Origin: Haloflavibacter putidus
Lineage (GTDB): Bacteria; Bacteroidota; Bacteroidia; Flavobacteriales; Flavobacteriaceae
Reading direction: 5' to 3'
DNA: 64,000 nt
Assembly: GCF_006546625.1 (NCBI RefSeq)
Contig: NZ_VIAR01000003.1
Location: forward strand, 186,001-250,000
In this document: piece by piece, positions 1,346 to 56,124 of the stretch
Position numbering within the stretch: position 1 is the first letter of the stretch
Layout of the letters: every line of letters begins with the position of its first letter
Position numbers and translations under genes: made by a program
Notes under the pieces: generated by a model
What the model saw: only the letters and a program-made list of their open reading frames with translations
The model's database searches: none
What the model was told of the DNA's origin: nothing

Positions 1346-3883
1346 ATGCAAAAATTACAAAGTTATATTAACGGAAAATGGGTAGAAGGTTCTGGCGAAG
1401 GCGTACCAATGCTAGATGCCGTTACCGGAGAAACCATTGCGTTAAGTGATACAAAAGGGCTTGATTTTGATCAAGCTCTAAAATATGGTAGAAAAAAAGG
1501 AGAAGCTTTACGGAAAATGACATTCCAAGAACGCGGATTAATGCTTAAAAAATTGGCCTTTTACCTGCAAAAAAAGAAAAAACAATTTTACGAGGTAAGC
1601 TACCGTACCGGAGCCACCAAAGCAGATAGTTGGGTAGATATTGAAGGCGGATTTGGAAACCTCTTCGCCAATGCTTCTTTACGGAAAATTTTCCCAAACC
1701 AGCCTTTTGATGTGGAAGGAGATCCTATAGATTTATCGCGTGGCGGTCGTTTTATGGGGCATCATATTTTGGTACCAAAAGAAGGAGTCGCGGTACACAT
1801 CAATGCTTTTAATTTTCCGGTTTGGGGAATGTTAGAAAAATGTGCCGTAAACTGGATGGCCGGAATGCCTGCAGTGGTAAAACCAGCCACCAATACTTCG
1901 TTTTTAACAGAAGCGGTAGTGCGCGAAATCATTAATTCGGGAATTTTACCCGAAGGTTCTTTACAACTTATTTCAGGTTCTGCGCGTTCTATTTTAGATA
2001 CGGTAGAATCGCAAGACGTGGTGACGTTTACCGGCTCTGCAGATACCGGAAGACTTTTAAAATCGCATAAACGCTTATTAGAAGAATCGGTTCCGTTTAA
2101 TATGGAGGCAGATTCTTTAAATTCTTCTGTTTTAGGGGAAGATGCAAAACCAGGAACGCCAGAATTTGCTTTATTCATTAAAGAAGTCCGCAATGAAATG
2201 ACTTCCAAGTGTGGTCAAAAATGTACCGCAATTCGGCGCGTGATTGTCCCGGAAAATTTGGTAGAAGATGTACAAATTGCCTTGGGCAAGTCGCTCGGAA
2301 AAGTTACTGTTGGCGATCCGCGTTTAAAAGAAGTGCGTATGGGGGCATTGGTAAGCAAAGATCAAGTACAAGAAGTACGCGAGCGGGTGCAAGAAATGAA
2401 TAAAACCGCTAGTTTGGTGTATGGCGATTTAGAAAATATAAAAACCATTGGAGCAGATACCAAAAAAGGTGCGTTTATGTCGCCTATTGTATTGCGAGAA
2501 GATAATCCGTTTGAAAATCTTGTCGTTCACACTACAGAGGCTTTTGGTCCGGTGAGTACTATTATGCCGTATAAAAATTTAGACGAAGCTATAAAATTGT
2601 CTAAAATGGGCAAAGGTTCTTTGGTAAGTTCTATTGCTACCGGCGATGATAAAATAGCCCGCGATTATACGGTAAAAGCAGCTACGCACCACGGTAGAAT
2701 TTTGGTAATTAACAGAGAAAGCGCCAAGCAGAGTACCGGTCACGGTTCGCCATTGCCAATGTTGGTGCACGGCGGTCCCGGAAGAGCCGGCGGCGGCGAA
2801 GAAATGGGCGGTAAACGCGGCGTAAAGCACTACATGCAGCGTTGTGCCATTCAAGGTTCGCCAACTACCTTAACAGAAATTACCGGTATTTATCAAGCCA
2901 ATTCCAAATATAAAGAGGCAGAAAAACATCCGTTTGCATACCATTGGGAAGACATTCAGCCCGGTATGTCGTTAAAAACGCATAACAGAACTTTAACCGA
3001 TACAGATATTGTAAACTTCGGTAATCTTACTTGGGATCATTTTTATGCCCATACAGATATTACTTCCTTAGACGGTAGTATTTTTGAGAAGAGAACCGCA
3101 CACGGATACTTTATTATTTCCGCAGCAGCGGGATTATTTGTATATCCTAATAAAGGTCCGGTAGCGGCAAATTATGGTTTAGAAGAAATTCGTTTTTTGC
3201 GCCCGTTGTATCATAACGACACGATTCACGTGCGATTAACTTGTAAAGAGAAAATAGATCGCGAACAAAAAGGAAGAGAATTACCCAGCGGAATCGTAAA
3301 ATGGTTTGTAGAGGTTTTTGACACCAACGTAACCGACGGAAAACTACCGAAAGACGAAGCAGAAGAAAAAGAGAGTTTAGTTGCTATTGCCACCATTTTG
3401 ACGATGGTGCAAAAGAAGCAAAATACCTTTACGGAAATTAACGAAGATGTTATCAATTCCGCTTTAGCGAAATTAAACGAAGACACAAAACCACAATGGG
3501 GCGAAATGAAACCCCAAGATTTGGTAGAACACTTAGAAGCAAGTTACCGAATTGCTTCGGGCGAAATCCAGGATTTTGAAATTGCTACGCCAGAGAAATA
3601 TTTAGATGATACCCGTTCTACTTTATGGAATTATGAAAAGATGCCCAAGAATTATAATTTCCCGTTATACGAAGAAGGAAAACTCCCAGAATTGAAACAT
3701 GAAAACTTGGAAGAAGCAAAGAAAAAACTGCAGGAAGCTCGAGAAGAATATATTGAGTTCTTTAAAGAAAACCCGGATGCTATTACCAAAAATGCCGTGT
3801 TTGGAGAGTTAACCAAATACGAATGGGAGTTGTTAGAGCGTAAACACCTTAACCATCATTTTGAGCAGTTTGGTATGTTGTAA
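1346..3883 (+). CDS. paaZ: PaaZ: oxepin-CoA hydrolase / semialdehyde dehydrogenase with extra C-terminal domain
   Basis: PaaZ opens the oxepin-CoA ring with its hydratase domain and oxidises the resulting semialdehyde with its aldehyde dehydrogenase domain in aerobic phenylacetate degradation. Residues 1 to about 515 are the dehydrogenase, with Glu254 in NMEADSLN and the nucleophile Cys293 in GQKCTAIRR. Residues about 530-690 are a MaoC hot-dog hydratase with Asp564 and His569 in DHFYAHTD. The family is normally about 680 residues, but this protein has 845. The extra 150 or so residues look like a DinB-superfamily DUF1569 domain (WGEMKPQDLVEHL near the start, EWELLERKHLNHHFEQFG near the end). 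A large hairpin at 3905-3980 follows the stop. Confidence 0.92.
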   Translation: MQKLQSYINGKWVEGSGEGVPMLDAVTGETIALSDTKGLDFDQALKYGRKKGEALRKMTFQERGLMLKKLAFYLQKKKKQFYEVSYRTGATKADSWVDIEGGFGNLFANASLRKIFPNQPFDVEGDPIDLSRGGRFMGHHILVPKEGVAVHINAFNFPVWGMLEKCAVNWMAGMPAVVKPATNTSFLTEAVVREIINSGILPEGSLQLISGSARSILDTVESQDVVTFTGSADTGRLLKSHKRLLEESVPFNMEADSLNSSVLGEDAKPGTPEFALFIKEVRNEMTSKCGQKCTAIRRVIVPENLVEDVQIALGKSLGKVTVGDPRLKEVRMGALVSKDQVQEVRERVQEMNKTASLVYGDLENIKTIGADTKKGAFMSPIVLREDNPFENLVVHTTEAFGPVSTIMPYKNLDEAIKLSKMGKGSLVSSIATGDDKIARDYTVKAATHHGRILVINRESAKQSTGHGSPLPMLVHGGPGRAGGGEEMGGKRGVKHYMQRCAIQGSPTTLTEITGIYQANSKYKEAEKHPFAYHWEDIQPGMSLKTHNRTLTDTDIVNFGNLTWDHFYAHTDITSLDGSIFEKRTAHGYFIISAAAGLFVYPNKGPVAANYGLEEIRFLRPLYHNDTIHVRLTCKEKIDREQKGRELPSGIVKWFVEVFDTNVTDGKLPKDEAEEKESLVAIATILTMVQKKQNTFTEINEDVINSALAKLNEDTKPQWGEMKPQDLVEHLEASYRIASGEIQDFEIATPEKYLDDTRSTLWNYEKMPKNYNFPLYEEGKLPELKHENLEEAKKKLQEAREEYIEFFKENPDAITKNAVFGELTKYEWELLERKHLNHHFEQFGML

Positions 3884-3904
3884 GAAGTGTAGATAGAACA
3901 ATAG

Positions 3905-3980
3905 ATAAAGCCGTCTAACTAAGAGAAAGATCCTGAATCAAGTTCAGGATGACAAATCTTCCTCAATTAGATGGCTTTAT
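3905..3980. terminator. Nested hairpin between convergent paaZ and DPP7 genes
   Basis: An outer 14-bp stem (3905-3918 with 3967-3980, one G-T pair) encloses an inner hairpin tcctgaa-tcaag-ttcagga (3931-3949). It separates two convergent genes, so a bidirectional terminator is likely. The inner hairpin followed by TGACA matches a repeat type seen again at 13756. Confidence 0.6.
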
Positions 3981-4006
3981 TATTTCAGTAAACTACGTTT
4001 GCTAGT

Positions 4007-6148
4007 TTACTTCACTAAAGTCAACTCATCAATAAGATGTGTTGCTCCGGCATATTTGTCTATTAAAAACAATACGTATCTAATATCTACACTAATGGTG
4101 CGTTGCAATTCATCGTCAAAAATAACATCGCCGGCCATGGCTTCAATGTTTCCGTCAAAGGCCAAACCAATTAATTCTCCGTTTCCGTTTAAAACTGGCG
4201 AGCCAGAATTTCCGCCGGTAATATCATTATCAGTTAAAAAGTTTACCGGCAAATAACCATCTTCATCGGCATACTGGCCAAAATCTTTTTTCTCGTATAA
4301 ATCGATTAACTTTTGCGGCATATCAAACTCTTCGTCTCCCGGTTGGTATTTGGCAACTGTTCCCTTTAAAGTAGTATAATAGTTTTTCTTAGCATCGTTA
4401 CTTTCATCTTCAGGTAAGGCAATTACTTTTCCGTAAGTTAAACGCAAAGTGCTGTTGGCATCCGGATAATATTTTTTGTCTGGGTTTTGCTCTCGCATTC
4501 CTTGAATCATCAACCTAAAAGCTTTTTGGTATTTGTCTTGCCACTCTTTTTCCTCGTCGGTTTCTGCTCTATAATGCATTAACAAATCTGTAGATAAGGC
4601 GTACATAGGGTCGTTGTCAAGCTCTTCTATATTCGGGTTGTTTAAAAATGCTCTAAAGCTCTCTTCAGATTTAAAAATGCTGTTTTCTATTGCTTGGTCT
4701 ATATATTTTTGCCAAGCTTCTACATCATTATCGCTTTTATCAGCAATTTCTTTTACTTTAGGGGCAATATCTTTTGCTTTTTCAGAGTACAAATGTAATT
4801 GAGAAGCCAGTACATCTTTTTCTAAAGGGAGATACAAACCATCGTATAATTTCTCGATTTCATTCTCTAATTTAGGTAACATCTCTGCTTGTTTCGCCTC
4901 GTTCTGCGTAAGGTAATATTCCATAGTTTTTCCTAAACGGTATGGAATTGTAGCCATTCGCGTACGCAATAAAAGACTTAAATAATTACGATGACGACTA
5001 CTTTCGTTGGTCTTTTTATAATACTTGTTAATAATAGGCATTACCTCTTCGTACTTGTCACTTTCTTGCTTTTTAGCCCATTTTTGGAATTTTTTCTCTG
5101 CTTTACGCTTGGTTTTGGCAGTTTTATGCTGTTTTAGCGCATCTATCATTCCTTGTCTGTTTTTCCAATAATTGGCAATACGGGCATAGCTGGAAGCGTA
5201 ATCTAAATTCACTTGTGGTTTTTCATCCATATATTTCTTCATCACATCCATAGATGTTTTAGAAGCTTCTACCCAAGCAGGATATGCGTACTCTACATTT
5301 TGCTCAATTCCTGCAGCAGGCATCCAACGATTGGTTCTTCCGGGGTAACCCAAAATCATAGCAAAATCGTTTTCTTCAAAACCTTTAATGCTAGTTGGTA
5401 AGTGATATTTTGGTTCTAATGGTACGTTGTCTTCAGAATACTCAGCGGGATTTCCGTCTTTATCTGCATACACTCTAAATAAAGAAAAATCTCCGGTATG
5501 GCGCGGCCACTCCCAGTTATCTGTATCGCCACCAAATTTCCCAATGTCTTTTGGCGGAGTTCCTACCAAACGTACATCGTTATAATCTTGGTAAACAAAG
5601 TAGTAAAACTCATTACCGCTGTAAAAAGACTTTACGGAAACGGTGTATTTTCCATCTTCGCTGTTTTCTTTTTGAATTTTTGCCATCTCTTTATTTAAAG
5701 CGGCTTCGCGTTCGTCTTCTGTCATTTGGCCGTTTACTTGCGCCAGCATACGTTCCGAAACATCGTCCATTCGCACAAAGAAGCGCACCGAAAGATTCTC
5801 CGGTTTTAACTCTTCTTCATAATTTTTTGCCCAAAACCCGTTGTTGAGGTAATCGTTTTCTTCTGTAGAAAGTTCAGCAATATTACCGTAACCACAGTGA
5901 TGGTTGGTAAGCACCAAACCTTTGTTGGAAATGATTTCTGCAGTACAACCACCGCCAAATTGTACGATAGCATCTTTTAAGCTTTGGTTGTTGATACTGT
6001 AAATTTCTTCGGGCGTAAGTTGAAGCCCCATTTTTTGCATATCTACGTAATTTAAACGCTCAATATGCATTAAAAACCACATTCCTTCATTTGCCCTTAC
6101 GGGTAAAAAGAATGTAGCCAAGAGTAAACATAAAAGTATTTTTTTCAT
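4007..6148 (-). CDS. dpp7: S46 family dipeptidyl peptidase, DPP7-like
   Basis: This 713-residue exported protein (signal peptide about residues 1-19, MKKILLCLLLATFFLPVRA) is an S46 serine peptidase that removes dipeptides from peptide N-termini in the periplasm. The catalytic His lies in TNHHCGYG (residues 81-88), an Asp in the GGDTDNWEWPRHTGDF block, and the nucleophile Ser648 in GGNSGSP. In Porphyromonas S46 enzymes the S1 residue decides specificity: Gly gives DPP7 (hydrophobic P1), Arg gives DPP11 (Asp/Glu P1). Here the equivalent residue is Gly666 in AFDGN, so DPP7-like specificity is inferred. A paralogue with Arg lies at 8563-10752. It stands alone and convergent to paaZ. Confidence 0.9.
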   Translation of the reverse strand: MKKILLCLLLATFFLPVRANEGMWFLMHIERLNYVDMQKMGLQLTPEEIYSINNQSLKDAIVQFGGGCTAEIISNKGLVLTNHHCGYGNIAELSTEENDYLNNGFWAKNYEEELKPENLSVRFFVRMDDVSERMLAQVNGQMTEDEREAALNKEMAKIQKENSEDGKYTVSVKSFYSGNEFYYFVYQDYNDVRLVGTPPKDIGKFGGDTDNWEWPRHTGDFSLFRVYADKDGNPAEYSEDNVPLEPKYHLPTSIKGFEENDFAMILGYPGRTNRWMPAAGIEQNVEYAYPAWVEASKTSMDVMKKYMDEKPQVNLDYASSYARIANYWKNRQGMIDALKQHKTAKTKRKAEKKFQKWAKKQESDKYEEVMPIINKYYKKTNESSRHRNYLSLLLRTRMATIPYRLGKTMEYYLTQNEAKQAEMLPKLENEIEKLYDGLYLPLEKDVLASQLHLYSEKAKDIAPKVKEIADKSDNDVEAWQKYIDQAIENSIFKSEESFRAFLNNPNIEELDNDPMYALSTDLLMHYRAETDEEKEWQDKYQKAFRLMIQGMREQNPDKKYYPDANSTLRLTYGKVIALPEDESNDAKKNYYTTLKGTVAKYQPGDEEFDMPQKLIDLYEKKDFGQYADEDGYLPVNFLTDNDITGGNSGSPVLNGNGELIGLAFDGNIEAMAGDVIFDDELQRTISVDIRYVLFLIDKYAGATHLIDELTLVK

Positions 6149-6369: not shown

Positions 6370-7125
6370 ATGAGTGAACAAGCATACGTAAAGAAAAATA
6401 TAAAGAATAAAATTGCGACCGTAGAATTTTTTCATCCTGCTCATAATTCGTTACCGGGAAAAATCTTGGCAGAATTGGCAGATACCATTACAGAAATAGG
6501 ACAAAATGATGAGGTTTTAGTAATTGTCTTAAAATCTGGTGGCGACCGCACTTTTTGTGCCGGGGCAAGCTTTACGGAATTAATCAATATTGAAAACGAA
6601 AAAGACGGCGAGAAATTTTTTATGGGCTTTGCCAATGTAATTAACGCAATGCGCAAATGTCCTAAATTTATTATTGGTCAAGTACAAGGAAAAGCTGTTG
6701 GCGGCGGAGTAGGAGTCGCCTCTGCGGTAGATTATTGTATGGCCACTAAATTTTCGGCAATTAAATTGAGTGAATTGAATTTAGGTATCGGGCCTTTTGT
6801 AGTTGGACCGGCAGTAGAGCGTAAAATAGGAACCAGCGGGATGTCTCAAATTGCTATAGATGCCAATTCTTTTTATTCGCCAGAATGGGCCAAGCAAAAA
6901 GGCTTGTATGCCAATGTTTACGAATCTGCAGAAGAGTTGGAAGAAGCAGTAGCAGAATTAGCGCAAAATTTATGTGCTTACAATCCGGAAGCCGTTAAAG
7001 AAATGAAACAAATGTTCTGGCGCGGAACCGAAGATTGGGACGAGCTTTTAAACGAACGCGCAAAAATTAGTGGAAGATTAGTTTTATCTGATTTTACGAA
7101 AGATAAATTGGAGAAGTATAAGTAA
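6370..7125 (+). CDS. Enoyl-CoA hydratase/isomerase family protein
   Basis: This crotonase-fold protein of about 251 residues would hydrate or isomerise an enoyl-CoA thioester. Visible blocks are the oxyanion-hole segment GDRTFCAGASFTEL, the GGGVGVASAVDYCMA helix start and the SELNLGIGP segment with the usual acidic residue. In this setting, between paaZ and paaY, it is a candidate for the PaaF or PaaG step of phenylacetate degradation, but I cannot tell which. The ATG at 6370 (MSEQAYVKKN) is chosen over a GTG at 6322, because the intervening 16 residues (AIHYTMIIFEAKHNT) do not look like a crotonase N-terminus. A hairpin at 7170-7190 follows the gene. Confidence 0.82.
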   Translation: MSEQAYVKKNIKNKIATVEFFHPAHNSLPGKILAELADTITEIGQNDEVLVIVLKSGGDRTFCAGASFTELINIENEKDGEKFFMGFANVINAMRKCPKFIIGQVQGKAVGGGVGVASAVDYCMATKFSAIKLSELNLGIGPFVVGPAVERKIGTSGMSQIAIDANSFYSPEWAKQKGLYANVYESAEELEEAVAELAQNLCAYNPEAVKEMKQMFWRGTEDWDELLNERAKISGRLVLSDFTKDKLEKYK

Positions 7126-11221: not shown

Positions 11222-11810
11222 ATGCCTAAACCAAAAAAACATAATAAACGTCGTGAAGAAATTTTGCAAGTGGCGGCTAAACTTTTTAACGAAAAAGGCT
11301 ATAAAGCAACTTCTTGTAAAAGATATTGCCACGGTTGCAGGTACTGAGGCTGCCAGTTTGTACAACCATATTAAAAACAAGCAGGAAATTTTACAGGTAT
11401 TGCTTTTAGCTGTAGCCGAAAAATTTAACGTTGCTATAGATGCTATTTCTGTAAAGAAAATTGCGTCTAAACAAAAACTAAAACAAATAATAGAAGCGCA
11501 TTTAGAAATTGCTTTTGAGCACAGACAAAGCGTACATCTTATTCTGCACGATTGGAAAGAGCTGGAAGAAGAGCAAAAACAAACTTTTTTAACTTTACGG
11601 AACGATTACCAAAATAAATTTCAAAAAATTATAGAAGACGGTATAGAAAGCGGGTGTTTAAAAAATATAAATCCAGTCTTGCAATTACAGCATATTTTAT
11701 CTTCCTTAAGATGGATTTACAACCCGGAACTCTACAAAAAACCAGTCGAAATAAATTTGGAAGAATATAAAGAAACCGTACTCAATTTGCTATTTAACGG
11801 TATTTTTTAA
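11222..11810 (+). pseudogene. TetR family regulator disrupted by a +1 frameshift
   Basis: From the ATG at 11222 the frame encodes MPKPKKHNKRREEILQVAAK and continues LFNEKGYKATS, a typical TetR helix-turn-helix start. It then runs out at 11345. The rest of the HTH (VKDIATVAGTEAASLYNHI) and the ligand-binding domain continue in the next frame to 11810. Removing one T in the run at 11312-11315 joins both parts into a protein of about 195 residues. TetR-type repressors control paa genes in several bacteria, so this may be the paa regulator. Either it is a real null allele or there is a sequencing error. The neighbouring paaK remnant makes real decay plausible. Confidence 0.8.
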
Positions 11811-13933: not shown

Positions 13934-16036
13934 ATGATAAAAAAAGATATACTAAAAAAAGCATTCTCCAACCTTTGTACCGCGAAGGCTTTAACAGAGT
14001 TATATGAAGAAAATTTTAAAACGGTTTCTAAATATGTACACGCTACTTCGCGTGGGCACGAAGTGATTCAAATGGCGGTGGGAATGCAGTTATTTCCGCA
14101 AGATTATGTTTTTCCCTATTATCGGGACGACTCGATTTTACTGTCTATCGGGATGCAACCTAAAGATCTCATGTTGCAAGTTTTGGCCAAAAAAGAAGAT
14201 CCGTTTTCTGGTGGGCGCACCTATTATTCGCATCCCAGTCTAAAAGATGCCGATAAACCTAAGATTCCGCACCAGAGTTCTGCTACGGGAATGCAAGCCA
14301 TTCCGGCTACAGGCGTTGCTTTAGGGTTTCATTACCGCGAAGGAGGCGATTTATTTACGGAAGATGAAAAATACGCGTTTTATAAAGAAATGGGGCAAGA
14401 AGAAGCTTTGGTGAATGGCGAGAAACCAGTTGTGGTTTGTTCGTTAGGAGACGCCAGTGTTACCGAAGGGGAAATAGCAGAAGCTTTTCAAATGGCTGCG
14501 CTTAAAAAATTACCTATTTTATATGTGGTGCAAGATAACGGCTGGGATATTTCTGCTAACGAAGCCGAAACTCGCGCCCAAAATGCGGCAGAATATGCAC
14601 AAGGATTTAAAGGTTTAGAAGCCGTTTCTATAGACGGAACCAATTTTGAAGAAAGTTATACCACGGTTCAAAATGCGTTGAAAACCATCCGTAAAGAAAG
14701 AAGACCAATGTTGATTCACGCTAAAGTCCCGTTATTGAATCACCATACTTCCGGCGTGCGAATGGAATTTTATCGCGATGATTTAGAGGAAGCGAAAACC
14801 CGCGATCCGTTTCCGAAAATGAAAGACTATTTATCTAAAAATAATTTTACGGAAGATGAGTTGGAAGCGATTGAAGCCTTGGCGCGCGTAAAAGTAAAAG
14901 AACACTACCAAGAAGCTTTAGCTGCAGAGAACCCGAAACCAGAAGATTTATTTACGCATGATTTTGCACCAACGCCGATTACCGAAGAAAAAGGAGAACG
15001 CTCTCCCGAAGGCGCCGAAAAAGTGGTGATGGTAGATTGTGCGTTGTTTGCCATTGAAGAACTGATGAAAAAACACAAAGAATGCTTGTTGTACGGCCAA
15101 GATGTTGGCGGAAGATTGGGCGGTGTGTTTAGAGAAGCGGCTACTTTGGCACAAAAATTTGGAGACAATCGCGTGTTTAATACACCAATTCAAGAAGCCT
15201 TTATAGTGGGGTCCACCGTTGGGATCTCGGCGGTAGGATTAAAACCCATTGTTGAGGTACAATTTGCAGATTATATCTGGCCGGGACTCAATCAGTTATT
15301 TACAGAAGTTAGCAGAAGCTGTTATTTATCTAACGGCAAATGGCCGGTTTCTATGGTATTACGTGTTCCAATTGGCGCTTATGGCAGTGGCGGACCTTAT
15401 CATTCTTCTTCCGTAGAAAGTGTGGTGAGCAACATTCGCGGACTCAAAATTGCGTACCCGAGCAATGGAGCCGATTTAAAAGGTTTGATGAAAGCCGCTT
15501 ATTACGACCCTAATCCGGTAGTAATTTTTGAACACAAAGGTTTATATTGGAGTAAAGTGCCCGGAACTAAAGGTGCAACCTCTGTAGAACCTAGCGAAGA
15601 TTATGTATTGCCGTTTGGTAAAGCTTGGGTTTTACAAGAAATCTGGAAGCAAGAAGACAAAGAAACCCTTAGTATTATTACCTACGGAATGGGCGTGCAT
15701 TGGGCGATGAACGCTTCCGCGGAATTAAATATGCAAGATCAAATAGAAGTAGTAGATTTACGAACCTTGCATCCTCTAGATGAGGAAACCATTATGAAAT
15801 CCGTAAAGAAATGCGGCAAATGTTTGGTTGTAACCGAAGAACCTTCAGATAATACCTTTGCAAGAGCTTTATCGGGTAAAATTCAGGAAGAATGCTTTAA
15901 ATCATTGGACGCTCCGGTAATGACAATTGGTTCAGAGAATATGCCAGCAATTCCGTTAAACTCCACTTTAGAAGAAACCATGATTCCTTCAACGGAGAAA
16001 GTAAAGAAGAAGATAAAGGAGTTGGTGGATTATTAA
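13934..16036 (+). CDS. Branched-chain type 2-oxoacid dehydrogenase E1, fused alpha-beta
   Basis: This 700-residue protein joins E1 alpha and E1 beta, which are separate genes in most bacteria. The alpha half (about 1-340) binds thiamine diphosphate through GDASVTEGE (Gly172-Asp173) and the downstream QDNGWDIS. The beta half (about 365-700) begins VMVDCALFAIEELMKK and carries the GQDVGGRLGGVFR, NTPIQEAFIVG and VQFADYIWPGLNQL blocks. E1 decarboxylates the 2-oxoacid (for example from Val, Leu or Ile) and loads the acyl group onto the lipoyl domain of the E2 encoded upstream at 11917. Such fusions are common in Bacteroidetes and feed branched fatty-acid synthesis. A hairpin terminator follows. 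Confidence 0.9.
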   Translation: MIKKDILKKAFSNLCTAKALTELYEENFKTVSKYVHATSRGHEVIQMAVGMQLFPQDYVFPYYRDDSILLSIGMQPKDLMLQVLAKKEDPFSGGRTYYSHPSLKDADKPKIPHQSSATGMQAIPATGVALGFHYREGGDLFTEDEKYAFYKEMGQEEALVNGEKPVVVCSLGDASVTEGEIAEAFQMAALKKLPILYVVQDNGWDISANEAETRAQNAAEYAQGFKGLEAVSIDGTNFEESYTTVQNALKTIRKERRPMLIHAKVPLLNHHTSGVRMEFYRDDLEEAKTRDPFPKMKDYLSKNNFTEDELEAIEALARVKVKEHYQEALAAENPKPEDLFTHDFAPTPITEEKGERSPEGAEKVVMVDCALFAIEELMKKHKECLLYGQDVGGRLGGVFREAATLAQKFGDNRVFNTPIQEAFIVGSTVGISAVGLKPIVEVQFADYIWPGLNQLFTEVSRSCYLSNGKWPVSMVLRVPIGAYGSGGPYHSSSVESVVSNIRGLKIAYPSNGADLKGLMKAAYYDPNPVVIFEHKGLYWSKVPGTKGATSVEPSEDYVLPFGKAWVLQEIWKQEDKETLSIITYGMGVHWAMNASAELNMQDQIEVVDLRTLHPLDEETIMKSVKKCGKCLVVTEEPSDNTFARALSGKIQEECFKSLDAPVMTIGSENMPAIPLNSTLEETMIPSTEKVKKKIKELVDY

Positions 16037-22891: not shown

Positions 22892-23497
22892 ATGAAAGCA
22901 GCAAGCGCTATAATGATAATTGGCTCAGCTTTATTATTGAGCCTGTTTATCTATCCGTTATGGACGGTAGAACTAGAAGCTCCGCAATATCCGGACGGAT
23001 TGGGAATGTACATACATTTAGACGGCTTAAAAGGCTTTACGGAATATGATTTAAAAAATATTGATGGCCTAAACCACTATATTGGTATGCAAAAATTGCC
23101 GAAACCCACAGATATGTGGGAGTTTCAAACTTTTCCTATTGTGGTAGGAATAATGTCTGGCTTAGGAATATTAATAGGTGTTTTAGGATTTTTTAAAGTA
23201 GTTACCTACAAATGGTTTTTAGGTTGGCTAATCTTAATGACAGTTTTAGGAGTTGCCGGCATGTACGACTTTAATGCTTGGTTGGTAGATTATGGTACCA
23301 ACTTAGATCCAAAAGCTATTATAAAAGTGGTAGATAAAGAAGGAAATCCTTTTAGTTACAAACCACCATTATTAGGCTCTCGAGATATTCTTAACTTTAC
23401 GGCAGTTTCTTATCCAGCAATGGGAGGTATTTTGCTAACTGTAGGAATGTTCTTAACTTTCGTAGCTTATTTAGTAGGATTAAAAAGAGCAAAATAA
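22892..23497 (+). CDS. Nos-cluster membrane protein between nosZ and nosL
   Basis: This protein of about 201 residues has an N-terminal membrane helix (about 2-22), a periplasmic stretch with LDGLKGFTEYDLKNIDGLNHY and WEFQTFP, and three further helices (VVGIMSGLGILIGVLGFF, WFLGWLILMTVLGVAGMY, MGGILLTVGMFLTFVAYLVG). Proteins in this position are typical of clade II nos clusters (a NosB-like slot), and their function is not established. The ATG at 22892 is preferred to a start at 22844, because the 16 extra residues are basic and would precede the membrane helix without need. The stop is immediately followed by the nosL ATG. Confidence 0.7.
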   Translation: MKAASAIMIIGSALLLSLFIYPLWTVELEAPQYPDGLGMYIHLDGLKGFTEYDLKNIDGLNHYIGMQKLPKPTDMWEFQTFPIVVGIMSGLGILIGVLGFFKVVTYKWFLGWLILMTVLGVAGMYDFNAWLVDYGTNLDPKAIIKVVDKEGNPFSYKPPLLGSRDILNFTAVSYPAMGGILLTVGMFLTFVAYLVGLKRAK

Positions 23498-40338: not shown

Positions 40339-41202
40339 TTAGCCTAAAAACTTTTTTAATAACTTATTTTTAGAAGAATGCCGAAGTTTTTTAATTCCTT
40401 TTTCTCGTATTTGACGTACTCTTTCTCTGGTTAAACCAAAGGTTTCGCCAATTTCTTCTAAGGTCATTGCCCGGTGATCTCCAATTCCGTAAAACAATTT
40501 TATCACATCTGCTTCGCGTTGGGTTAGAGTTTCTAAAGCACGATTTATTTCTATATTTAAAGAATCGCGTATTAAACCTTCGTCTGGGTTGGGTGATTCT
40601 CCTACATTAAGAACATCGTATAAATTGGATGTTTCTCCGTCTTTTAAAGGCGCATCCATAGATAAATGTCTGCCGGAGTTTTTTAAAGATTGCTTAACGT
40701 CTGCAATTGTCATATCAAGCTCGTTAGCAAGCTCTTCTGGCGTTGGTGGCCGCTGGTTGGCTTGTTCTAAATGTGCAAAAGCTTTATTTATTTTATTGAT
40801 AGAACCAATTTTGTTAAGCGGCAATCTCACCACACGAGATTGTTCTGCCAAGGCTTGCAGGATAGATTGCCTAATCCACCATACGGCATACGAGATAAAT
40901 TTAAAACCCCGGGTTTCGTCAAAACGTTTTGCAGCTTTTACCAAACCAACGTTTCCTTCATTGATTAAATCTGGAAGTTTTAGACCTTGATTTTGGTATT
41001 GTTTGGCTACCGAAACCACAAAACGTAAATTGGCAGTAGTAAGTTTTTCTAATGCAACTTGGTCTCCTTCTCTAATGCGCTGTGCCAGCTCTACTTCTTC
41101 TTCTGCGGTAATTAAATCTACCTTACTTATATCATGCAAGTATTTATCTAACGAAACAGATTCTCTATTAGTAACCTGTTTAGTAATTTTAAGCTGTCTC
41201 AT
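40339..41202 (-). CDS. rpoD: Primary sigma factor RpoD/SigA, short Bacteroidetes form
   Basis: The 287-residue housekeeping sigma factor contains region 1.2 ([20 protein letters not shown]), region 2 ([19 protein letters not shown], then the [16 protein letters not shown] part that contacts the -10/-7 element), region 3 and region 4 with the [22 protein letters not shown]. Region 1.1, found in proteobacterial RpoD, is missing, as is usual in Bacteroidetes, where it recognises TTTG/TAnnTTTG promoters such as that at 50606-50635. A weak hairpin lies in its leader (about 41221-41254). Confidence 0.96.
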
Positions 41203-41306: not shown

Positions 41307-43976
41307 TTAGTTGTTTTCTTGTTTTTGTTTGTCTTTTTTCTTTTTTCCGAAAAGACCACCTAAAATATCTTCTGCAGCGTCTTTTATTTTATCTCTGCCA
41401 TCTTTGGTTTTGCTGGTGTCTTTTACCGTGTCTTCTTGATTTTCTGTAGCGTCATTGTCTTTATTTCCGCCAAGAATATCCTTGATCTTATCGGTTGCTT
41501 TATCTTTTATTTTGTCTTTTTGCGAAGCTATTATCTGCTGACTTAACTCCTGCGTGGCTTGTTTTATGTTGAGTTGCACATTAGGGTTGTTAAAGCTTCC
41601 GCTTAAAGCGACAGGTAAAGTTATTTTGGTATTTTCTAAATCTGTTTGTGTAAGATTTGCCAAGCCACCACCAATTTCTGAGCCTAAATATTTAGCAGGT
41701 AAATCTAAAGCCATTTCATAGTTCATTTGGTTATCAAAACCATGGCTTCCGTTAACGGTAATTAAAATATCTTTTATATTAAAATCAAATGGTTGCAAGT
41801 TTACTTGACCGTCTTGAAATTGTACTTGAGTTTGAATGTCTTTTAGGTCTAACTTGTCTAAATTTAAAAAATCTAGCTTACTGTCTAAGTTGGCCAATAA
41901 AGGCATTTGCTGTGTATCTACATCTGCATTTAAAATTTTGGCAAAAGCATCTCCTGCTAAACTGCTTAAAATTGGGGTTAACTCTTTTGTTAAATTACCC
42001 TGTAAATTAATAGTGGTATTAAGATCTCCCTTTAAAGCTTTGGCAATTGGTGCCAGGTTGCGTAAAAGCTCTAATTCTTTAAAAGACTCTACAATATTTA
42101 TACGGTTCAACTTAAGGTCCATATCAAAAGTTGGTTGTGCGGCTTTGGTAGATACATTTCCGTTAAGGCTAATATTACCACCAAAAATATCTGCCGAGAC
42201 ATTTTCTAAACGTGCTGTTTCGTCTTTTATAGCCATTGCGCCTTTGGTGTTGCTTAGCGTCAAATTATCATAAATTACTTTATTGGCGGTAAAATCTAAT
42301 CGCGCATCTAAAAAAGAAGGAATTTTAATAGCTTCTTCTTGGGTGACTTTGGGTTGTTGCGAAGTTTTGGTTTCTTCATTTTCCTTTACGGAAGTGTCTT
42401 CGGCTTGCGCAATCATAAAGTCGTTAATGGCAAAGGTATTGGCAGCAACTTTAAACCTACCTTTCAATTTTTGATCAGAAAATAAATACCCCATCAAATT
42501 ATCTAAAGTCCCCGAAATTTTAGCATCTGTTTGACCGGTTTTTAATTGCATTTCTTGCAAAGTAACGTTACTGGTGTTAAAGCTCAAATTGGCGCGGTCT
42601 ACCAAAACAGGATTAGGAATTTCTTTAGAGGTATATTTAAAATTGCTAATGCTTGCAGTACCTTGACTTTTAACCCTGCTGTAGTTTTCGTTTTCTACAT
42701 CGTTCATCGTAAAATTGGTTTGCAAGTCAGCTTTTAAAATTCCGTTTAAATCTTGTTCTAATTCTAACGGATAGGCTTTTTCTAGGTTTGCAAGATTTAG
42801 TGTTCCTTTTAAAACCAGATTAACCAACATGTTTTCGGTAAGATTTTTAAAATTACCATTTGCAGAAAATACGTCTTGGTCTATGGTAAAAGTTAACTTA
42901 TCTAAATTTAGATAAGTGTCTTCCAATTTGCCGGTTTGGTTTTTTAAGACCGCATCTAAATTTATGTTCTGCACTTGCTTTGGTAAATCCGGATATTTAA
43001 AAGCGGCGTTGTTACTGGTAACTGCGATGTCTAGTTTCGGAATAGTTTCATCGTCTATAATTCCGTTTATTTTACCATCTATTTTAAAGTCGCCCGAAGT
43101 TTCTACTCCATCTAAATTTTTCGCATAAGTTTCGGGAATTACGGCTAAAAAGTTTTTAAAATCAGAAGAAGGCGTGGTAAAACTTATATCTACCTCGTTA
43201 TTATTTTCGTTTACTTTTACAAAACCATCAAAAGTTAAAGGCAATTTATTAATTAACGCTTTATTTTCTAAAAAACTAAATTTCTGCTCTGCCAAATTCA
43301 TTTTAAAGTCGGCGTCTAATTGCAGTTTGTGGCTTTCTAAGTAATTTTCTTGGTCTAAGGCAAAAGAAATAAGTGTTTCTGAAGTTGTTTTTAGCGTAAA
43401 CTCTTCCGCAGAGAAATCACCGCTCCCGTAGTGATTAAAATCTCTTAGACGTACAAAAGTTTTAGAGCCTTCGTCTAAATAATTAATGCGCGAGTTGGTA
43501 ATACTATATTCCTGAACATCTAAACTTAAACCGCCTTGTTTGCTTTGTTGCTGGTTTTGGTTTTGGGTGCTGCTTTCTTTAGCAATGTCATAATTTGCGT
43601 TGCCTAGAGAGTCTACTTTAATGTTTATATACGCATTATCTAAATCTAATTTGTTAACGCTCAAAGGTTCGTCCCCGCTTTTAAAAAGTTGCGGAATGCC
43701 CATACTAAATCCAAGTTTTTCTGCCGTTGCCAGAGTATCGCCGGCAAAAGGTCTTTTATTAATAACGCTTAGGTTGTGTAATTGCAGCTCGGCATCGGGA
43801 AAGCTCGAAAAAAGACTTAAATTTAAATCTTCCCAAGCTACGGTTGCATTTATGTTGTTATTGATAGATTTTTTTACAGCACGTTCTATTGGTCCTTTAA
43901 ATATAAAAGGTGCGGCAATTAAAAACACCACCAAAACCAGTAGTACGATTCCTATAATTTTTAAAGCTTTTTTCAT
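41307..43976 (-). CDS. AsmA family membrane-anchored protein
   Basis: The 889-residue protein has an N-terminal membrane anchor (about residues 7-27, IIGIVLLVLVVFLIAAPFIF) and a very long beta-rich periplasmic part with AsmA signatures, NATVAWEDLNLSLFSSFPDA near the start and SLAGDAFAKILNADVDTQ...LDLKDIQTQVQFQDG in the C-terminal AsmA_2 region. AsmA-like proteins are thought to form bridges that move lipids between the membranes. The C-terminus is a long Lys/Asp-rich tail (about 825-889) that includes two ILGG motifs (DKIKDILGG and AAEDILGG). It is monocistronic. Confidence 0.88.
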   Translation of the reverse strand: MKKALKIIGIVLLVLVVFLIAAPFIFKGPIERAVKKSINNNINATVAWEDLNLSLFSSFPDAELQLHNLSVINKRPFAGDTLATAEKLGFSMGIPQLFKSGDEPLSVNKLDLDNAYINIKVDSLGNANYDIAKESSTQNQNQQQSKQGGLSLDVQEYSITNSRINYLDEGSKTFVRLRDFNHYGSGDFSAEEFTLKTTSETLISFALDQENYLESHKLQLDADFKMNLAEQKFSFLENKALINKLPLTFDGFVKVNENNNEVDISFTTPSSDFKNFLAVIPETYAKNLDGVETSGDFKIDGKINGIIDDETIPKLDIAVTSNNAAFKYPDLPKQVQNINLDAVLKNQTGKLEDTYLNLDKLTFTIDQDVFSANGNFKNLTENMLVNLVLKGTLNLANLEKAYPLELEQDLNGILKADLQTNFTMNDVENENYSRVKSQGTASISNFKYTSKEIPNPVLVDRANLSFNTSNVTLQEMQLKTGQTDAKISGTLDNLMGYLFSDQKLKGRFKVAANTFAINDFMIAQAEDTSVKENEETKTSQQPKVTQEEAIKIPSFLDARLDFTANKVIYDNLTLSNTKGAMAIKDETARLENVSADIFGGNISLNGNVSTKAAQPTFDMDLKLNRINIVESFKELELLRNLAPIAKALKGDLNTTINLQGNLTKELTPILSSLAGDAFAKILNADVDTQQMPLLANLDSKLDFLNLDKLDLKDIQTQVQFQDGQVNLQPFDFNIKDILITVNGSHGFDNQMNYEMALDLPAKYLGSEIGGGLANLTQTDLENTKITLPVALSGSFNNPNVQLNIKQATQELSQQIIASQKDKIKDKATDKIKDILGGNKDNDATENQEDTVKDTSKTKDGRDKIKDAAEDILGGLFGKKKKDKQKQENN

Positions 43977-47733: not shown

Positions 47734-50349
47734 TTGTCTGCAAAAAAAGCTAAAAAAGTAACGCCGCTAATGAAGCAATATTATGCCATAAAGCATAAAT
47801 ATCCGGATGCGATGTTGTTGTTTAGAGTAGGCGATTTTTACGAAACTTTTGGTGAAGATGCCGTAAAAGCAGCGCGCATTTTAAACATTGTTTTAACCAA
47901 CCGAAATAACGGTAGCGAACGAACAGAGTTGGCCGGATTTCCGCATCATAGTTTAAATACCTATTTGCCAAAATTGGTAAAAGCCGGTGAGCGCGTGGCC
48001 ATTTGCGACCAGTTAGAAGACCCAAAGCAGACCAAAAAAATTGTAAAACGCGGGGTGACAGAATTGGTTACGCCGGGCGTGGCGCTAAACGATGAGGTTT
48101 TGCAGAGTAAGACCAATAATTTTTTATGTGCCGTGCATTTTGGAAAGAAAAATTGCGGAATTGCTTTTGTAGATGTATCTACGGGCGAGTTTTTGACGGC
48201 AGAGGGCAATGTAGAATATCTGGATAAATTGTTGCAAAACTTTGCCCCAAGCGAGGTGTTGGTTTCTAAAAGTTGTAAAAAAGATTTTGCTAAACACTTT
48301 GGCAACGGCTACCATACGTTTTTTTTAGAAAACTGGATTTTTAAACCAGATTATGCTACAGAGACCTTAAACCAGCATTTTAAAACCAAATCGCTTAAAG
48401 GTTTTGGTATTGAAAATCTTGTAGATGGGGTGATTGCTTCGGGGGCTATTTTGTATTATTTAAGCGAGACGCAGCATCATAAATTAGAACATTTAGCTTC
48501 TATATCGCGCATTGCACAAGAAGAATATGTGTGGATGGACCGCTTTACCATTCGTAATCTGGAGTTGTATCAATCTAGCGCCAACCAAGCGGTTACCTTG
48601 TTAGATGTTATAGATAAAACCATTTCGCCAATGGGTGGCAGGTTGCTAAAACGTTGGTTGGCATTGCCGTTAAAAAATTTGGAAAAGATTACGCGACGTT
48701 ATGAAGTAGTTGACTTTTTTTTGAAAAATGGCTCGTTAAAAGAAAAATTACAAAGCCAAATAAAAAATATGGGCGATTTGGAACGTCTGATTTCTAAAGT
48801 TGCGACGCAAAAAATAAGTCCGCGGGAAGTCGTGCAACTAAAAACCTCTTTAGACGCGGTGGTTCCTATAAAAGAAGCCACAAAAAACACCGGCTGCGAG
48901 CCTTTAAATAGTATCTCAGAAAATTTGCATGCTTGTGATTTATTGCGTTCTAAAATTAAAAACGCTTTAAAAGATGATGCTCCGGTAAATCTGGCAAAAG
49001 GAAATGTGATTGCAGATGGCTTTTCGGAAGAATTAGACGAGTTGCGTAAAATTGCCTTTTCAGGGAAAGATTATTTGGATAAAATGATAGTGCGAGAGGT
49101 AAAAACTACCGGCATTAGCAGTTTAAAAATTGGCAGCAATAATGTGTACGGTTTTTATATTGAAGTACGCAACACGCATAAGGATAAAGTACCAGAAACC
49201 TGGGTGCGTAAACAAACCTTGGTAAATGCCGAACGTTATATTACTGAAGAACTAAAAGAATATGAAACCAAAATTTTAGGTGCCGAAGAGAAAATTCATA
49301 CTTTAGAGCAAGAAATTTTCACCAAACTGGTGATCTGGCTTAACGACTATATAGCTTCTGTACAACAAAACGCTTTGCTAATTGCACGTTTAGATTGTTT
49401 GTGCAGTTTTGCCCAATTGGCATTGGAAGAAAATTATTGCAAGCCGCAATTGCATACCGGGCACGATTTAAAAATAGAGCAAGGCAGGCATCCGGTAATA
49501 GAAAAACAATTGCCACCGGGAGAACCGTATATTGCTAACGATTTATTTTTAGATAGGGAAACCCAGCAGATTGTTATGATTACCGGGCCAAATATGAGTG
49601 GTAAGTCGGCTATTTTACGCCAAACTGCTTTAATTGTTTTATTGGCACAAATGGGAAGTTTTGTTCCGGCAAAAGCCGCTGAAATTGGACTGGTAGATAA
49701 AATTTTCACCAGGGTAGGAGCCAGCGATAATATTAGTATGGGCGAATCTACTTTTATGGTAGAAATGAACGAAACCGCCAATATCCTAAACAATGTTTCC
49801 GAAAGAAGTTTGTTGCTTTTAGACGAGATTGGACGCGGAACCAGTACCTACGACGGTATTTCTATCGCCTGGGCAATTAGCGAATATTTACACGAACATC
49901 CCGCAAATGCCAAGACTTTATTTGCAACCCATTACCACGAATTAAACGAAATGACTCAGCGTTTTGAACGGATTAAAAACTATAATGTTTCGGTAAAAGA
50001 ATTAAAAAATAAGGTTTTGTTTTTACGGAAATTAGTGCCGGGCGGCAGCGAGCATAGTTTTGGAATTCACGTAGCAAAAATGGCCGGAATGCCGCAGCAA
50101 GTGGTATTAAGAGCTTCTAAGATATTGAAAAAATTAGAAAAATCGCATGCGGGAGAAGAGCTTACCACCAATCTTAAAAGCGCAGCCGAACAGGAGCCGC
50201 AATTGAGCTTTTTTCAAATGGACGATCCGTTATTGCAGGAGATAAAAGAAGAAATTTTAGATCTAGATATAGATACGCTTACCCCGGTAGAAGCCTTGAT
50301 GAAATTGAACGAAATAAAACGCTTGTTGCAACCAAAAAAGCAAGCCTGA
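47734..50349 (+). CDS. mutS: DNA mismatch repair protein MutS
   Basis: The 871-residue protein recognises mispaired bases and starts mismatch repair. The N-terminal mismatch-binding domain carries [20 protein letters not shown] followed by [11 protein letters not shown], the Phe-x-Glu wedge lying in FYETF. The ATPase domain has Walker [10 protein letters not shown] (618-626), then [27 protein letters not shown] and the ATHYHEL switch. The C-terminal helical dimerisation tail is present. The start is a TTG at 47734, as no ATG fits upstream. A weak inverted repeat is found downstream at 50527-50556. Confidence 0.96.
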
Positions 50350-50942: not shown

Positions 50943-50960
50943 TGTATTCAGAAAATCAAA

Positions 50961-52451: not shown

Positions 52452-52482
52452 AAATTACGATAATCTAAAATTAGAGAAGTGT

Positions 52483-53602: not shown

Positions 53603-54844
53603 TTATAGCAAAGCTTGCTCGCTAATATAGTCCATTATTTTTGTGGTGGCTCCGGTTCTTTTTATAACAAAATCTTTGGCATTTTGTCCTGCTTTCTCCT
53701 GTTCTTCTTTACGGAAAAGCAAGTGCTGTAAAATAACATTCATTTCTTGTTGGTCCTTTACGGAAAAGAGTCCATCGTGGGTTTGTAAAGCCTTGGCTTC
53801 CGGAAACTTTTCAAAGTTTTTTCCTATAACAATTGGCACGCCAAAGGTTGCGGGTTCTAATATATTGTGCAAACCGGTGTTGCCCATTGCCCCACCAACG
53901 TATGCCACGTCTGCATAATTGTATAATTTGCTCAGTAAACCAATGGTATCGATAATTAAAACCGAAAAATTATTTAGGTTTTGTCCTTCTATTTCAGAAT
54001 ATAAAATGCTGGGTTTTTTTAAAGCTTTTTGAAAAGCTTTTATTTTTGAAGCTTCTATTTGATGCGGAGCAATAATATATTTTGCTTCCTGCCTGGTGTT
54101 ATTAATAAAATTGGACAGATATGTCTCGTCTTCCGGCCAAGTACTGCCACATACCAAACAAGGTTTTTCTGCCACAAATTCTTCGGCGAAAGCCAACTTA
54201 TTATCTATTTTTAATTGAGCGCTAACCCTGTCAAATCGCGTGTCGCCACTTATCGCAACTTTACGGAAATCGTAGTTTTTTAATAGATTTAAAGAGTTTT
54301 TATCTTGCACAAAAATATAGGTAAAACGCTCTAGAACCTTTCGCATAAATTTACCGTAGCTTTTAAAAAAATGCTGGTCTTTTCTAAATAATCCGGATAC
54401 CAATAAACACGGAATTTTTTGCTGCTGCAATTGTGCTAAATAATTGGGCCAAACTTCGTATTTTATAAAGATAGCAAGCTTTGGCTGTACAATTTTTATA
54501 AACTGTTTAGCGTTTTTTTTGGTATCTAAAGGTAAATAGCAAACCGCATCTGCAATGGCAGTGTTTTTCTTTATTTCGTAACCGGAGGGAGAGAAAAAAC
54601 TAACTAAAATTTGGTATTGGGAATAGTTTTTCCGAAAGCGATTTAGAATTGGTACGGCTTGTTCATATTCGCCCAGCGAGGCAGCGTGCACCCAAATTAC
54701 GGGTTTGTTATTTAATTCTTTCCGTAAAGAGGTAAAAGTATTTTTCCGACCCGAAACAAACAGACGCAATTTGCTGCTAAAGAGCGCTATTACAGGCAAA
54801 AGCTTTTCTGCTAATACTATAAAAAAGTTGTAGAGAACCTTCAA
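53603..54844 (-). CDS. waaA: 3-deoxy-D-manno-octulosonic acid (Kdo) transferase
   Basis: WaaA adds Kdo to the lipid A precursor at the cytoplasmic face of the inner membrane. The 413-residue GT30 protein has an N-terminal anchor and the family segments PVIWVHAASLGEYEQAVPIL, SFFSPSGYEI, FIKYEVWPNYL, then VSGLFRKDQ and VCGSTWPEDE, and the C-terminal GGAMGNTGLHNILEPATFGV nucleotide-sugar site. The length fits. It is monocistronic and divergent from the DegT aminotransferase gene. Confidence 0.93.
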   Translation of the reverse strand: MKVLYNFFIVLAEKLLPVIALFSSKLRLFVSGRKNTFTSLRKELNNKPVIWVHAASLGEYEQAVPILNRFRKNYSQYQILVSFFSPSGYEIKKNTAIADAVCYLPLDTKKNAKQFIKIVQPKLAIFIKYEVWPNYLAQLQQQKIPCLLVSGLFRKDQHFFKSYGKFMRKVLERFTYIFVQDKNSLNLLKNYDFRKVAISGDTRFDRVSAQLKIDNKLAFAEEFVAEKPCLVCGSTWPEDETYLSNFINNTRQEAKYIIAPHQIEASKIKAFQKALKKPSILYSEIEGQNLNNFSVLIIDTIGLLSKLYNYADVAYVGGAMGNTGLHNILEPATFGVPIVIGKNFEKFPEAKALQTHDGLFSVKDQQEMNVILQHLLFRKEEQEKAGQNAKDFVIKRTGATTKIMDYISEQALL

Positions 54845-54921: not shown

Positions 54922-54940
54922 CCGCCTAGAAAGTAAGCAG

Positions 54941-56068
54941 ATGAAAAAAATACAAATGGTAGACCTTAAAGGTCAGTTTCAACCAATAAAAGAACAAATT
55001 AAGGCTTCTTGGGAAGAAGTTTTAGAAAACACCAGTTTTATAAACGGTCCGCACGTGCATGGTTTCCAAAAAGAATTGGAAGAATATTTAAATGTTAAGC
55101 ACGTGATACCTTGTGCAAATGGTACAGATGCCTTGCAAATTGCTATGATGGGATTGGGATTAAAACCCGGAGACGAAGTGATAACGGCAGATTTTACTTT
55201 TGCCGCTACCGTAGAGGTAATTGCTTTGCTAAATTTAACCCCGGTTTTGGTAGATGTAGAAAAAGATTCTTATAATATTTCTGTAGAGGCTATAGAACGT
55301 GCTATTACGCCAAAAACCAAAGCAATTGTGCCGGTACATTTGTTTGGGCAACCAGCCAATATGGAAGCTATAAACAAACTTGCCAAAAAGCATAATTTAT
55401 TTGTAATTGAGGATAATGCGCAAGCTATTGGCGCAAATTATTATACTGCAGACGGAAGCTCCCAAAAAACCGGAACTATTGGCGACGTTGGGACAACCTC
55501 TTTTTTTCCTTCTAAAAACCTTGGTGCTTATGGCGATGGCGGCGCAATTTTTACCAACGATGATGCTTTGGCACATACTATAAGAGGAATTGTAAACCAC
55601 GGAATGTATGAGCGTTACCACCACGATGTTGTTGGGGTAAATTCTCGTTTAGATAGTTTGCAAGCTGCTGTTTTGCAAGCAAAATTACCGCATTTAGATG
55701 CGTATAATAAAGCTAGACGTACTGCTGCAAATAAATATAGCGAGGCATTAAAAGAGAATGAAAATGTTGCTGTGCCAAAAATTTTAGGAAAAGAAGATTC
55801 GCATGTTTTTCACCAGTATTGTTTGCGAATTTTAAACGGTAAACGCGATGCGCTTTTAAAACATTTACAAGAAAATGACGTTCCGTGCGGAATTTATTAT
55901 CCAATTCCGTTGCATGCACAAAAAGCTTATGCAGATAAACGCTACAACGAAGAAGATTTTACAATTACTAATCAATTGGTAAAAGAGGTAATTGCTTTGC
56001 CAATGCATACCGAGTTAGAAGAAGATCAAATTACGTTTATTACCAAATTGATAAACGATTTTGTATAG
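54941..56068 (+). CDS. DegT/DnrJ/EryC1/StrS family sugar aminotransferase
   Basis: The 375-residue PLP enzyme adds an amino group to a keto-sugar nucleotide, usually for cell-surface glycans. It shows CANGTDALQIAMMGLG (cofactor phosphate), IEDNAQAIGA with the PLP-ring Asp, the Schiff-base Lys192 in SFFPSKNLGAYGDGG and VGVNSRLDSLQAAVL. The sugar product cannot be told from the sequence. It is a single gene between waaA and a hairpin terminator, so it is not inside a recognisable glycan locus here. Confidence 0.92.
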   Translation: MKKIQMVDLKGQFQPIKEQIKASWEEVLENTSFINGPHVHGFQKELEEYLNVKHVIPCANGTDALQIAMMGLGLKPGDEVITADFTFAATVEVIALLNLTPVLVDVEKDSYNISVEAIERAITPKTKAIVPVHLFGQPANMEAINKLAKKHNLFVIEDNAQAIGANYYTADGSSQKTGTIGDVGTTSFFPSKNLGAYGDGGAIFTNDDALAHTIRGIVNHGMYERYHHDVVGVNSRLDSLQAAVLQAKLPHLDAYNKARRTAANKYSEALKENENVAVPKILGKEDSHVFHQYCLRILNGKRDALLKHLQENDVPCGIYYPIPLHAQKAYADKRYNEEDFTITNQLVKEVIALPMHTELEEDQITFITKLINDFV

Positions 56069-56090
56069 GAAATAGAACAAATTATTCCGT

Positions 56091-56124
56091 AAAGGCTTCT
56101 TATCTATAAAAGTAAGAAGCCTTT
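56091..56124. terminator. Terminator after the aminotransferase gene
   Basis: aaaggcttctta and taagaagccttt form a perfect 12-bp stem, followed by a T-run. It separates two convergent genes and probably serves both. Confidence 0.85.

Follow-up and report, generated by a model that had tools for sequence, protein, structure and literature searches.

A conserved, strand-balanced ten-base word in part of the genus Mesonia as a putative DNA-uptake sequence

The window analyzed here was a 64 kb stretch (positions 186,001 to 250,000 of contig NZ_VIAR01000003.1) of the 2.92 Mb draft genome deposited as Haloflavibacter putidus and referred to below as G000. It contained many copies of the 9-mer TTTACGGAA. 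An exact search found 24 of them, 19 on the plus strand and 5 on the minus strand. A preliminary description of this DNA had reported more than 20 copies on both strands, and all 19 of the plus-strand positions that it gave were correct. Three of its four minus-strand positions (31946, 54720 and 56085) were also right, whereas the fourth, given as 31073, corresponded to 31063-31071 and the copy at 40485-40493 had been missed.

Plus-strand copies lay within open reading frames (ORFs) for a PaaZ-like protein (ORF 1346-3883; copies at 1507..1515, 1678..1686 and 3428..3436), a member of the enoyl-CoA hydratase family (ORF 6322-7125; 6571..6579), a protein with a TetR_C_24 domain (ORF 11253-11810; 11594..11602), a protein with E1 dehydrogenase/transketolase domains (ORF 13934-16036; 14354..14362 and 14846..14854) and a class III aminotransferase (ORF 33183-34469; 33854..33862), as well as within ORFs 22844-23497 (23036..23044), 26695-27927 (27748..27756) and 47734-50349 (50022..50030). 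Other copies on this strand were antisense to the ORFs of an S46 peptidase (4007-6148; 5631..5639), a TPR protein (17392-18306; 18119..18127 and 18152..18160) and an AsmA protein (41307-43976; 42385..42393) and to ORF 53603-54844 (53708..53716, 53757..53765 and 54260..54268), and one was located between ORFs (31213..31221). On the minus strand, one copy lay between ORFs (31063..31071), one was antisense to ORF 31380-32300 (31946..31954), two were in the sense orientation of ORF 40339-41202 (40485..40493) and ORF 53603-54844 (54720..54728), and one was placed between the convergent ORFs 54941-56068 and 56127-56810 (56085..56093).

About one copy had been anticipated for a sequence of this size, and 100 dinucleotide-keeping shuffles of the window gave an expectation of 1.49 and a maximum of 6. 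In-sample Markov models of orders 0 to 7 predicted 0.8, 1.5, 2.0, 2.6, 4.0, 8.1, 17.2 and 24.6 copies, respectively. The preliminary description had proposed that a model of order 6 or higher predicting the count would speak against a signal; the count was indeed approached at order 6 and reached at order 7, yet this fit was circular because a model trained on 64 kb learns the motif itself. Extended by one base to the 10-mer CTTTACGGAA, the word occurred 20 times in the window compared with 0.33 expected from an order-2 model.

The excess extended over the whole genome of this marine bacterium and was borne out by controls free of such circularity. As a background control, we counted the mirror of each word (the word read backwards) in the same genome. 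There were 953 copies of TTTACGGAA in G000 (493/460 by strand) vs 72 of its mirror and 746 copies of CTTTACGGAA vs 8, and in 463 kb of this genome CTTTACGGAA was found 112 times where an order-3 model predicted 2.7. The recurring unit is CTTTACGGAA, with the core CTT-NN-CGGAA. Outside the 10 bp there was weak A/T enrichment at most, and words with one mismatch were also over-abundant at several positions. Among 299 genomes drawn evenly from the family, G000 included, two congeners had 106 and 101 copies of TTTACGGAA and no genome besides G000 exceeded 230 (G297, mirror 74); thus, the excess of the 9-mer was no family-wide trait.

Strand bias had been suggested as a check, and the 19:5 ratio of the window (binomial p 0.007, in one window of many) was not repeated genome-wide (493:460). 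Polarity was judged along contigs and between stretches, irrespective of the replication origin. Among 21 sampled stretches including the window, strand ratios were homogeneous (p 0.19 for heterogeneity), neighbouring sites in the samples were on the same strand 59 times and on opposite strands 67 times, and on the 119 kb contig C1 of G000 the strands were mixed (15:20). Neither the genome-wide counts nor the sampled stretches showed a polarity of the kind seen with FtsK-orienting polar sequences (KOPS). Since the strands were balanced genome-wide and the stretches homogeneous, a KOPS-type polarity was removed from consideration and the ratio in the window was attributed to a local accident. 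Inverted pairs were few, with 7 opposite-strand neighbour pairs less than 150 bp apart among 147 sites, and a role of such pairs as terminators was rejected for this reason.

The distribution of the word was then described in a genus set of 16 genomes including G000, which by inference belonged to Mesonia (Flavobacteriaceae), as the named loci most similar to a window gene were mostly from Mesonia, two of them being labelled Psychroflexus. CTTTACGGAA was abundant on both strands in G000 (376/370), G310 (804; 397/407), G300 (255; 128/127) and G306 (263; 139/124). There were 69-70 copies in G053, G273 and G311, 27 in G307, 18 in G301 and 4-17 in the other seven. A form with T, CTTTACGGAT, was dominant in G053, G273 and G311 (169, 154 and 162 copies vs 70, 70 and 69 of the A form), and it was found 97 times in G000, 102 in G310, 37 in G300, 61 in G306, 29 in G307 and 2-12 times in the other eight. 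The core with free middle bases, CTTNNCGGAA, reached 1176, 1261, 914 and 794 copies in G000, G310, G300 and G306 vs 107, 113, 74 and 117 of the mirror, so that G300 and G306 carried a less strict version of the word at a comparable density; the corresponding counts in G299, G301 and G053 were 82, 205 and 147 vs 116, 120 and 123. The dialects of the lineages were CTTTACGGAA, CTTNNCGGAA and CTTTACGGAT. Seven of the 16 genomes carried CTTTACGGAA or the dialect CTTTACGGAT, and nine were at or near background. Among the genomes with low counts, G307 clearly exceeded its mirror for both forms (27 vs 8 for CTTTACGGAA and 29 vs 5 for CTTTACGGAT), and G301 was about twofold over it (18 vs 7 and 12 vs 6). 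In samples of G000, G310 and G300 a gap of two bases between CTT and CGGAA was a clear optimum, which was weaker in G306 (236 per Mb vs 171 without a gap).

Further Mesonia sequences were searched for CTTTACGGA. Two uncultured Mesonia (L109 and L110) had 245 and 251 copies vs 41 and 42 of the mirror, and M. aquimarina had 38 vs 21. M. oceanica, M. mobilis, M. aestuariivivens, M. hippocampi and M. phycicola had 9-29 copies, in each case fewer than their own mirror. Another form of this signal may be represented by the palindrome TTCCGCGGAA. Three of its copies in the window were within ORFs (8363, 12186 and 15715) and one was intergenic with respect to ORFs (60758), two of the four reading CGCTTCCGCGGAAGCG, and samples of G000, G310, G300 and G306 (503, 198, 140 and 140 kb) contained 15, 7, 6 and 2 copies, with 0-2 in each of the other 12 genomes (82-338 kb).

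No replacement word as dense as that of G000 was found in samples of the nine word-poor congeners (82-338 kb each). The samples of G304 had overlapping words around GCCAATACC, of which GCCAATACCA occurred 11 times in 120 kb (0.5 expected) in five of six stretches, which made it about as dense as the T form in G053; these words were perhaps part of a longer repeat. The standout words of G302 came for the most part from only 1-3 of the 6 stretches sampled, and in the samples of G309 CTTCAGCA had a z of 5.3 under an order-4 model. As a separate observation, words containing CTTCGGAA were moderately over-represented in several Flavobacteriaceae, namely in the loci L119, L128, L178, L136, L135 and L159 and in the samples of G303, G306 and G309.

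We next consider the relation of the word to genes, where ORFs stood in for genes in the frame and intergenic counts. In 463 kb of G000, 106 of 147 sites were in ORFs (130 expected) and 41 were outside (about 17 expected). An excess outside ORFs was shared by G310 (17 of 51 sites, 8 expected); the small sample of G306 had 3 of 10 sites outside (1.2 expected), and G300 had 1 of 27 (1.3 expected). Inside the ORFs of G000 all five open frames were occupied (30, 19, 22, 12 and 23 sites), the sixth containing a stop. Moreover, codon choice in G000 was skewed to the word in all five. In the ORFs of 503 kb, Phe-Thr-Glu was encoded as TTT-ACG-GAA in 35 of 47 cases when codon use predicted 4.2, Leu-Tyr-Gly as CTT-TAC-GGA in 11 of 30 (0.4 expected) and, for the opposite strand, Phe-Arg-Lys as TTC-CGT-AAA in 13 of 34 (0.9 expected). 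The two-codon contexts were shifted in the same direction, with 35 of 537 for Ser-Val (18 expected) and 35 of 482 for Leu-Arg (15 expected). The nine word-poor congeners together gave 3 of 100 for Phe-Thr-Glu (7.7 expected), 6 of 82 for Leu-Tyr-Gly (1.8 expected; three of the six from G307) and 3 of 62 for Phe-Arg-Lys (2.0 expected). The earlier view had been that the word used various frames and gaps and that codon use did not explain it; all open frames were used and codon choice was overridden. Enrichment in a single frame, named there as grounds for refutation, was ruled out by the frame and codon-context counts.

The word was also conserved. In 67 kb aligned between G000 and its sister species G310 (90.4% identity), 21 of 21 copies in G000 were retained in G310, compared with 28 of 77 permuted 10-mers; in the reverse direction, 21 of 23 copies in G310 were present in G000, compared with 24 of 57 permuted 10-mers. 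At the coding site 7695 of locus L238, the word was found in G000, G310, G300 and G306, and the eleven others aligned differed by 1-3 wobble bases. Position 6752 of the same locus had the word in common in these four genomes. At the window site 6571, 1-2 wobble bases were changed in the eight of nine named loci that aligned. The remaining sites were more divergent or could be aligned only in G310.

It was probable, in our judgement, that CTTTACGGAA is a DNA-uptake sequence, a short asymmetric tag by which competent cells of these Mesonia species would favour their own DNA. This explanation fitted best because of the strand balance, the absence of polarity, the use of all open frames, the near-perfect conservation, the dialects and the near-absence of the word in the sister G301. 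Of the roles initially suggested for the 9-mer, an uptake signal was thus favoured and a chromosome organiser of the FtsK/KOPS type was dropped, while a site for a general DNA-binding protein kept some plausibility. The genome-wide excess, the strand balance, the use of all open frames, the codon override, the conservation, the dialects and open genes for an outer-membrane pair, an HhH protein and ComEC were observed directly. We infer that the bacterium may be competent, that the word may raise uptake and that it may be read by some component of the import machinery. In such a process, an import machinery with a taste for the word would take in word-bearing fragments, which would recombine into the chromosome. 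This ratchet, a form of molecular drive, would build up and preserve copies, and they would persist wherever the encoded protein tolerates the word.

To our knowledge, uptake sequences are known only from Pasteurellaceae and Neisseriaceae, which have type IV pili, and the classical ones work with a type IV pilus uptake motor. As far as a literature search judged by the matches listed showed, no uptake sequence has been reported in Bacteroidota, and none of the matches listed for the bare 9-mer concerned an uptake motif. The uptake signal sequences of Pasteurellaceae are of the types AAGTGCGGT and ACAAGCGGT. As generally described, they are similar to the Mesonia word in being asymmetric words of 9-10 bp with hundreds to thousands of copies, equal strands, several frames, dialects in sister clades and, as in some of the Mesonia genomes, an intergenic excess. 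On the other hand, the word itself is different, its density in Mesonia (about 0.26-0.33 per kb) is below that familiar from Haemophilus, and the CTTTACGGAA-rich Mesonia had no pilus ATPase above the family cut-off. The DNA uptake sequences of Neisseriaceae likewise form lineage dialects 1-2 bases apart, and a surface receptor, ComP, has been proposed as their reader. However, ComP is a minor pilin, whereas the Mesonia candidate has DUF5689 and DUF5017 domains and is encoded behind a TonB-type barrel, and inverted pairs are few in G000.

A comparison within the phylum was possible with Riemerella. According to one study, transformation of R. anatipestifer requires ComEC, DprA, ComF and RecA together with RA0C_RS04920, RA0C_RS04915 and two further proteins, one of the HhH and one of the DUF1343 type; the pair RA0C_RS04920/RA0C_RS04915 is essential, and there is no pilus gene among these eight essential genes (PMC8459023). 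RA0C_RS04920 has DUF5689 and DUF5017 domains, and the product of the neighbouring RA0C_RS04915 has a carboxypeptidase-regulatory domain and is predicted to be in the outer membrane (PMC8459023). R. columbina favours its own DNA, but no uptake sequence was identified in that study, whose k-mer table compares counts with base composition only and lists A/T-rich words (PMC7965970).

In the genus set, ComEC, an HhH protein of about 300 amino acids and a DUF5689 protein with an adjoining barrel were each present in all 16 genomes. PF00437, the ATPase family of type II secretion and type IV pili, was above the family cut-off only in G304, G305, G308 and G311, the last being a T-dialect genome. The barrel of G000 (929 amino acids; L254, 6780-9569) had a carboxypeptidase-regulatory domain and a match to a plug domain just below the cut-off. 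It was followed after 29 bases by the gene for the candidate receptor (448 amino acids, DUF5689 and DUF5017; 9599-10945), whose N-terminus resembled, by eye, a lipoprotein signal. Judging from domains and gene order, this pair is probably homologous to RA0C_RS04920 (receptor) and RA0C_RS04915 (barrel), and with the HhH protein and ComEC it would make the Mesonia set similar to that of Riemerella. Among solved structures the receptor had one weak match, a DUF4955 protein (residues 335-431, E 7e-5), and one marginal match, and the barrel had none. The DUF5689/DUF5017 protein behind the barrel may be the reader of the word, which was the weakest step of our proposal.

The history of the receptor was compared with that of the species. 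A midpoint-rooted species tree, built from 4201 alignment columns of 13 proteins encoded in a single 20 kb region, grouped (G301,(G000,G310)), placed (G300,G306) with (G053,G273,G311) and formed a clade of G305, G299, G303, G309, G304 and G308. The receptor and barrel trees, on the other hand, both joined G000/G310 with G300/G306 and G299. G301 was the closest relative of G000/G310, and its receptor was just 35% identical. The species tree was rejected by the receptor and barrel data (log-likelihood differences of 1183 and 821), the species data rejected the receptor and barrel trees, and the latter two conflicted less with each other (128 and 75). Because of this conflict with the species tree, the two CTTTACGGAA-rich clades have in common a receptor type whose distribution does not follow the species phylogeny. 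As a tentative possibility, Bacteroidota may possess a sequence-specific DNA import of their own, in which a SusCD-like pair of a TonB barrel and a DUF5689/DUF5017 surface lipoprotein reads a self-tag of 10 bp. The receptor locus might be swapped between species, and each swap would rewrite or erase the tag genome-wide by molecular drive. Such a system would be a pilus-free counterpart of those in Neisseria and Haemophilus.

Several observations weighed against an uptake sequence or its proposed reader. G299 had the same receptor type with only 5 copies of CTTTACGGAA, and no alternative word was found in 338 kb of its sequence. In the T-dialect genomes the receptor shared just 36% identity with the one in G000. 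In other genera, six genomes whose receptors were 53-60% identical had CTTNNCGGAA at 1.0-2.1 times the mirror vs 0.4-2.8 times in 12 other non-Mesonia genomes, so the receptor type was not supported as a predictor of the word outside the genus. Since G299 and other genera with similar receptors lacked the word, the link between receptor and word was suggestive only. The machinery searches took in PF00437, ComEC, HhH and DUF5689/barrel proteins; PF00437 was absent above the cut-off from the CTTTACGGAA-rich G000, G310, G300 and G306, and uptake by G000 would have to proceed without the pili of the classical systems. Spacing was no more regular than random, with coefficients of variation of 1.07 for C1 and 0.93 for the window vs 0.97 and 0.96 at random. 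The excess outside ORFs was not seen in G300, where 26 of 27 sites were in ORFs (25.7 expected) and 1 was outside (1.3 expected). Finally, literature searches on competence in Mesonia or Bacteroidota yielded no uptake study.

The best of the rival explanations, which we nevertheless considered unlikely, was a Chi-type site. On meeting the word, an AddAB (RecBCD-like) nuclease would switch to recombination, and selection would spread the word through the chromosome. Like Chi, the word is short, asymmetric, conserved (21 of 21 copies) and over-represented, and its number and length are within the Chi range. By family match, AddB-type PDDEXK_1 proteins of about 900 amino acids were present in all 16 genomes, and in 12 of them the contig had a second, AddA-like match close by. 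However, the nuclease was universal in the genus and the word was confined to 7 of 16 genomes, so a Chi site fitted poorly; the other nine, at or near background, had no other word as dense as that of G000 in their samples. Chi sites in well-studied genomes also favour the leading strand, and such a preference was not apparent for the Mesonia word, which was balanced genome-wide and mixed by strand within one 119 kb contig.

If the word were instead bound by a sequence-specific protein of the nucleoid or of chromosome structure, at roughly a thousand places, this would agree with the high copy number, the strand balance and the conservation. We judged this quite unlikely, as the lineage restriction, the dialects and the near-absence in G301 would be unusual for a housekeeping architecture protein, and KOPS-like polarity was not seen. 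It was more improbable that the word is a by-product, either of a methylation or defence self-tag or of a lineage mutation bias favouring it: its lineage-restricted pattern could track a mobile defence or modification gene, but a modification motif requires no enrichment and a mutation bias would not retain 21 of 21 copies at a background identity of 90.4%. Chance or codon usage, for which nothing spoke except the circular order-7 fit, was already refuted by the 953 copies vs 72, the excess of CTTTACGGAA, the frames, the codon override and the conservation.

Several features separate from the word were also noted. In 22 kb loci of Nonlabens sp. (L188) and Dokdonia sp. (L149), GCTTTCGCGA, part of the palindrome CGCTTTCGCGAAAGCG, occurred 13 and 9 times, counted over both strands, in 7 and 5 separate places. 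At approximately 14832-18127 of L014 (G000:C1:100001-118896), 43 direct repeats recurring about every 67 bases formed a CRISPR-like array. The window itself encoded a Sec-dependent nitrous-oxide reductase, NosZ (20838-22802), and contained, downstream of two tRNA genes, a long hairpin with 20 paired bases (50956-51001) followed by a T-rich sequence on the minus strand.

If CTTTACGGAA is an uptake sequence, DNA self-recognition would exist in a second great phylum, one in which the outer-membrane machinery is still uncharacterised. The word would provide a ready probe, in the form of word-bearing and word-free DNA, and together with it a candidate receptor for the crossing of the outer membrane by DNA in Bacteroidota. 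Moreover, a genus in which word-rich, dialect and word-poor species occur together would be a natural experiment on the rise and loss of such words.

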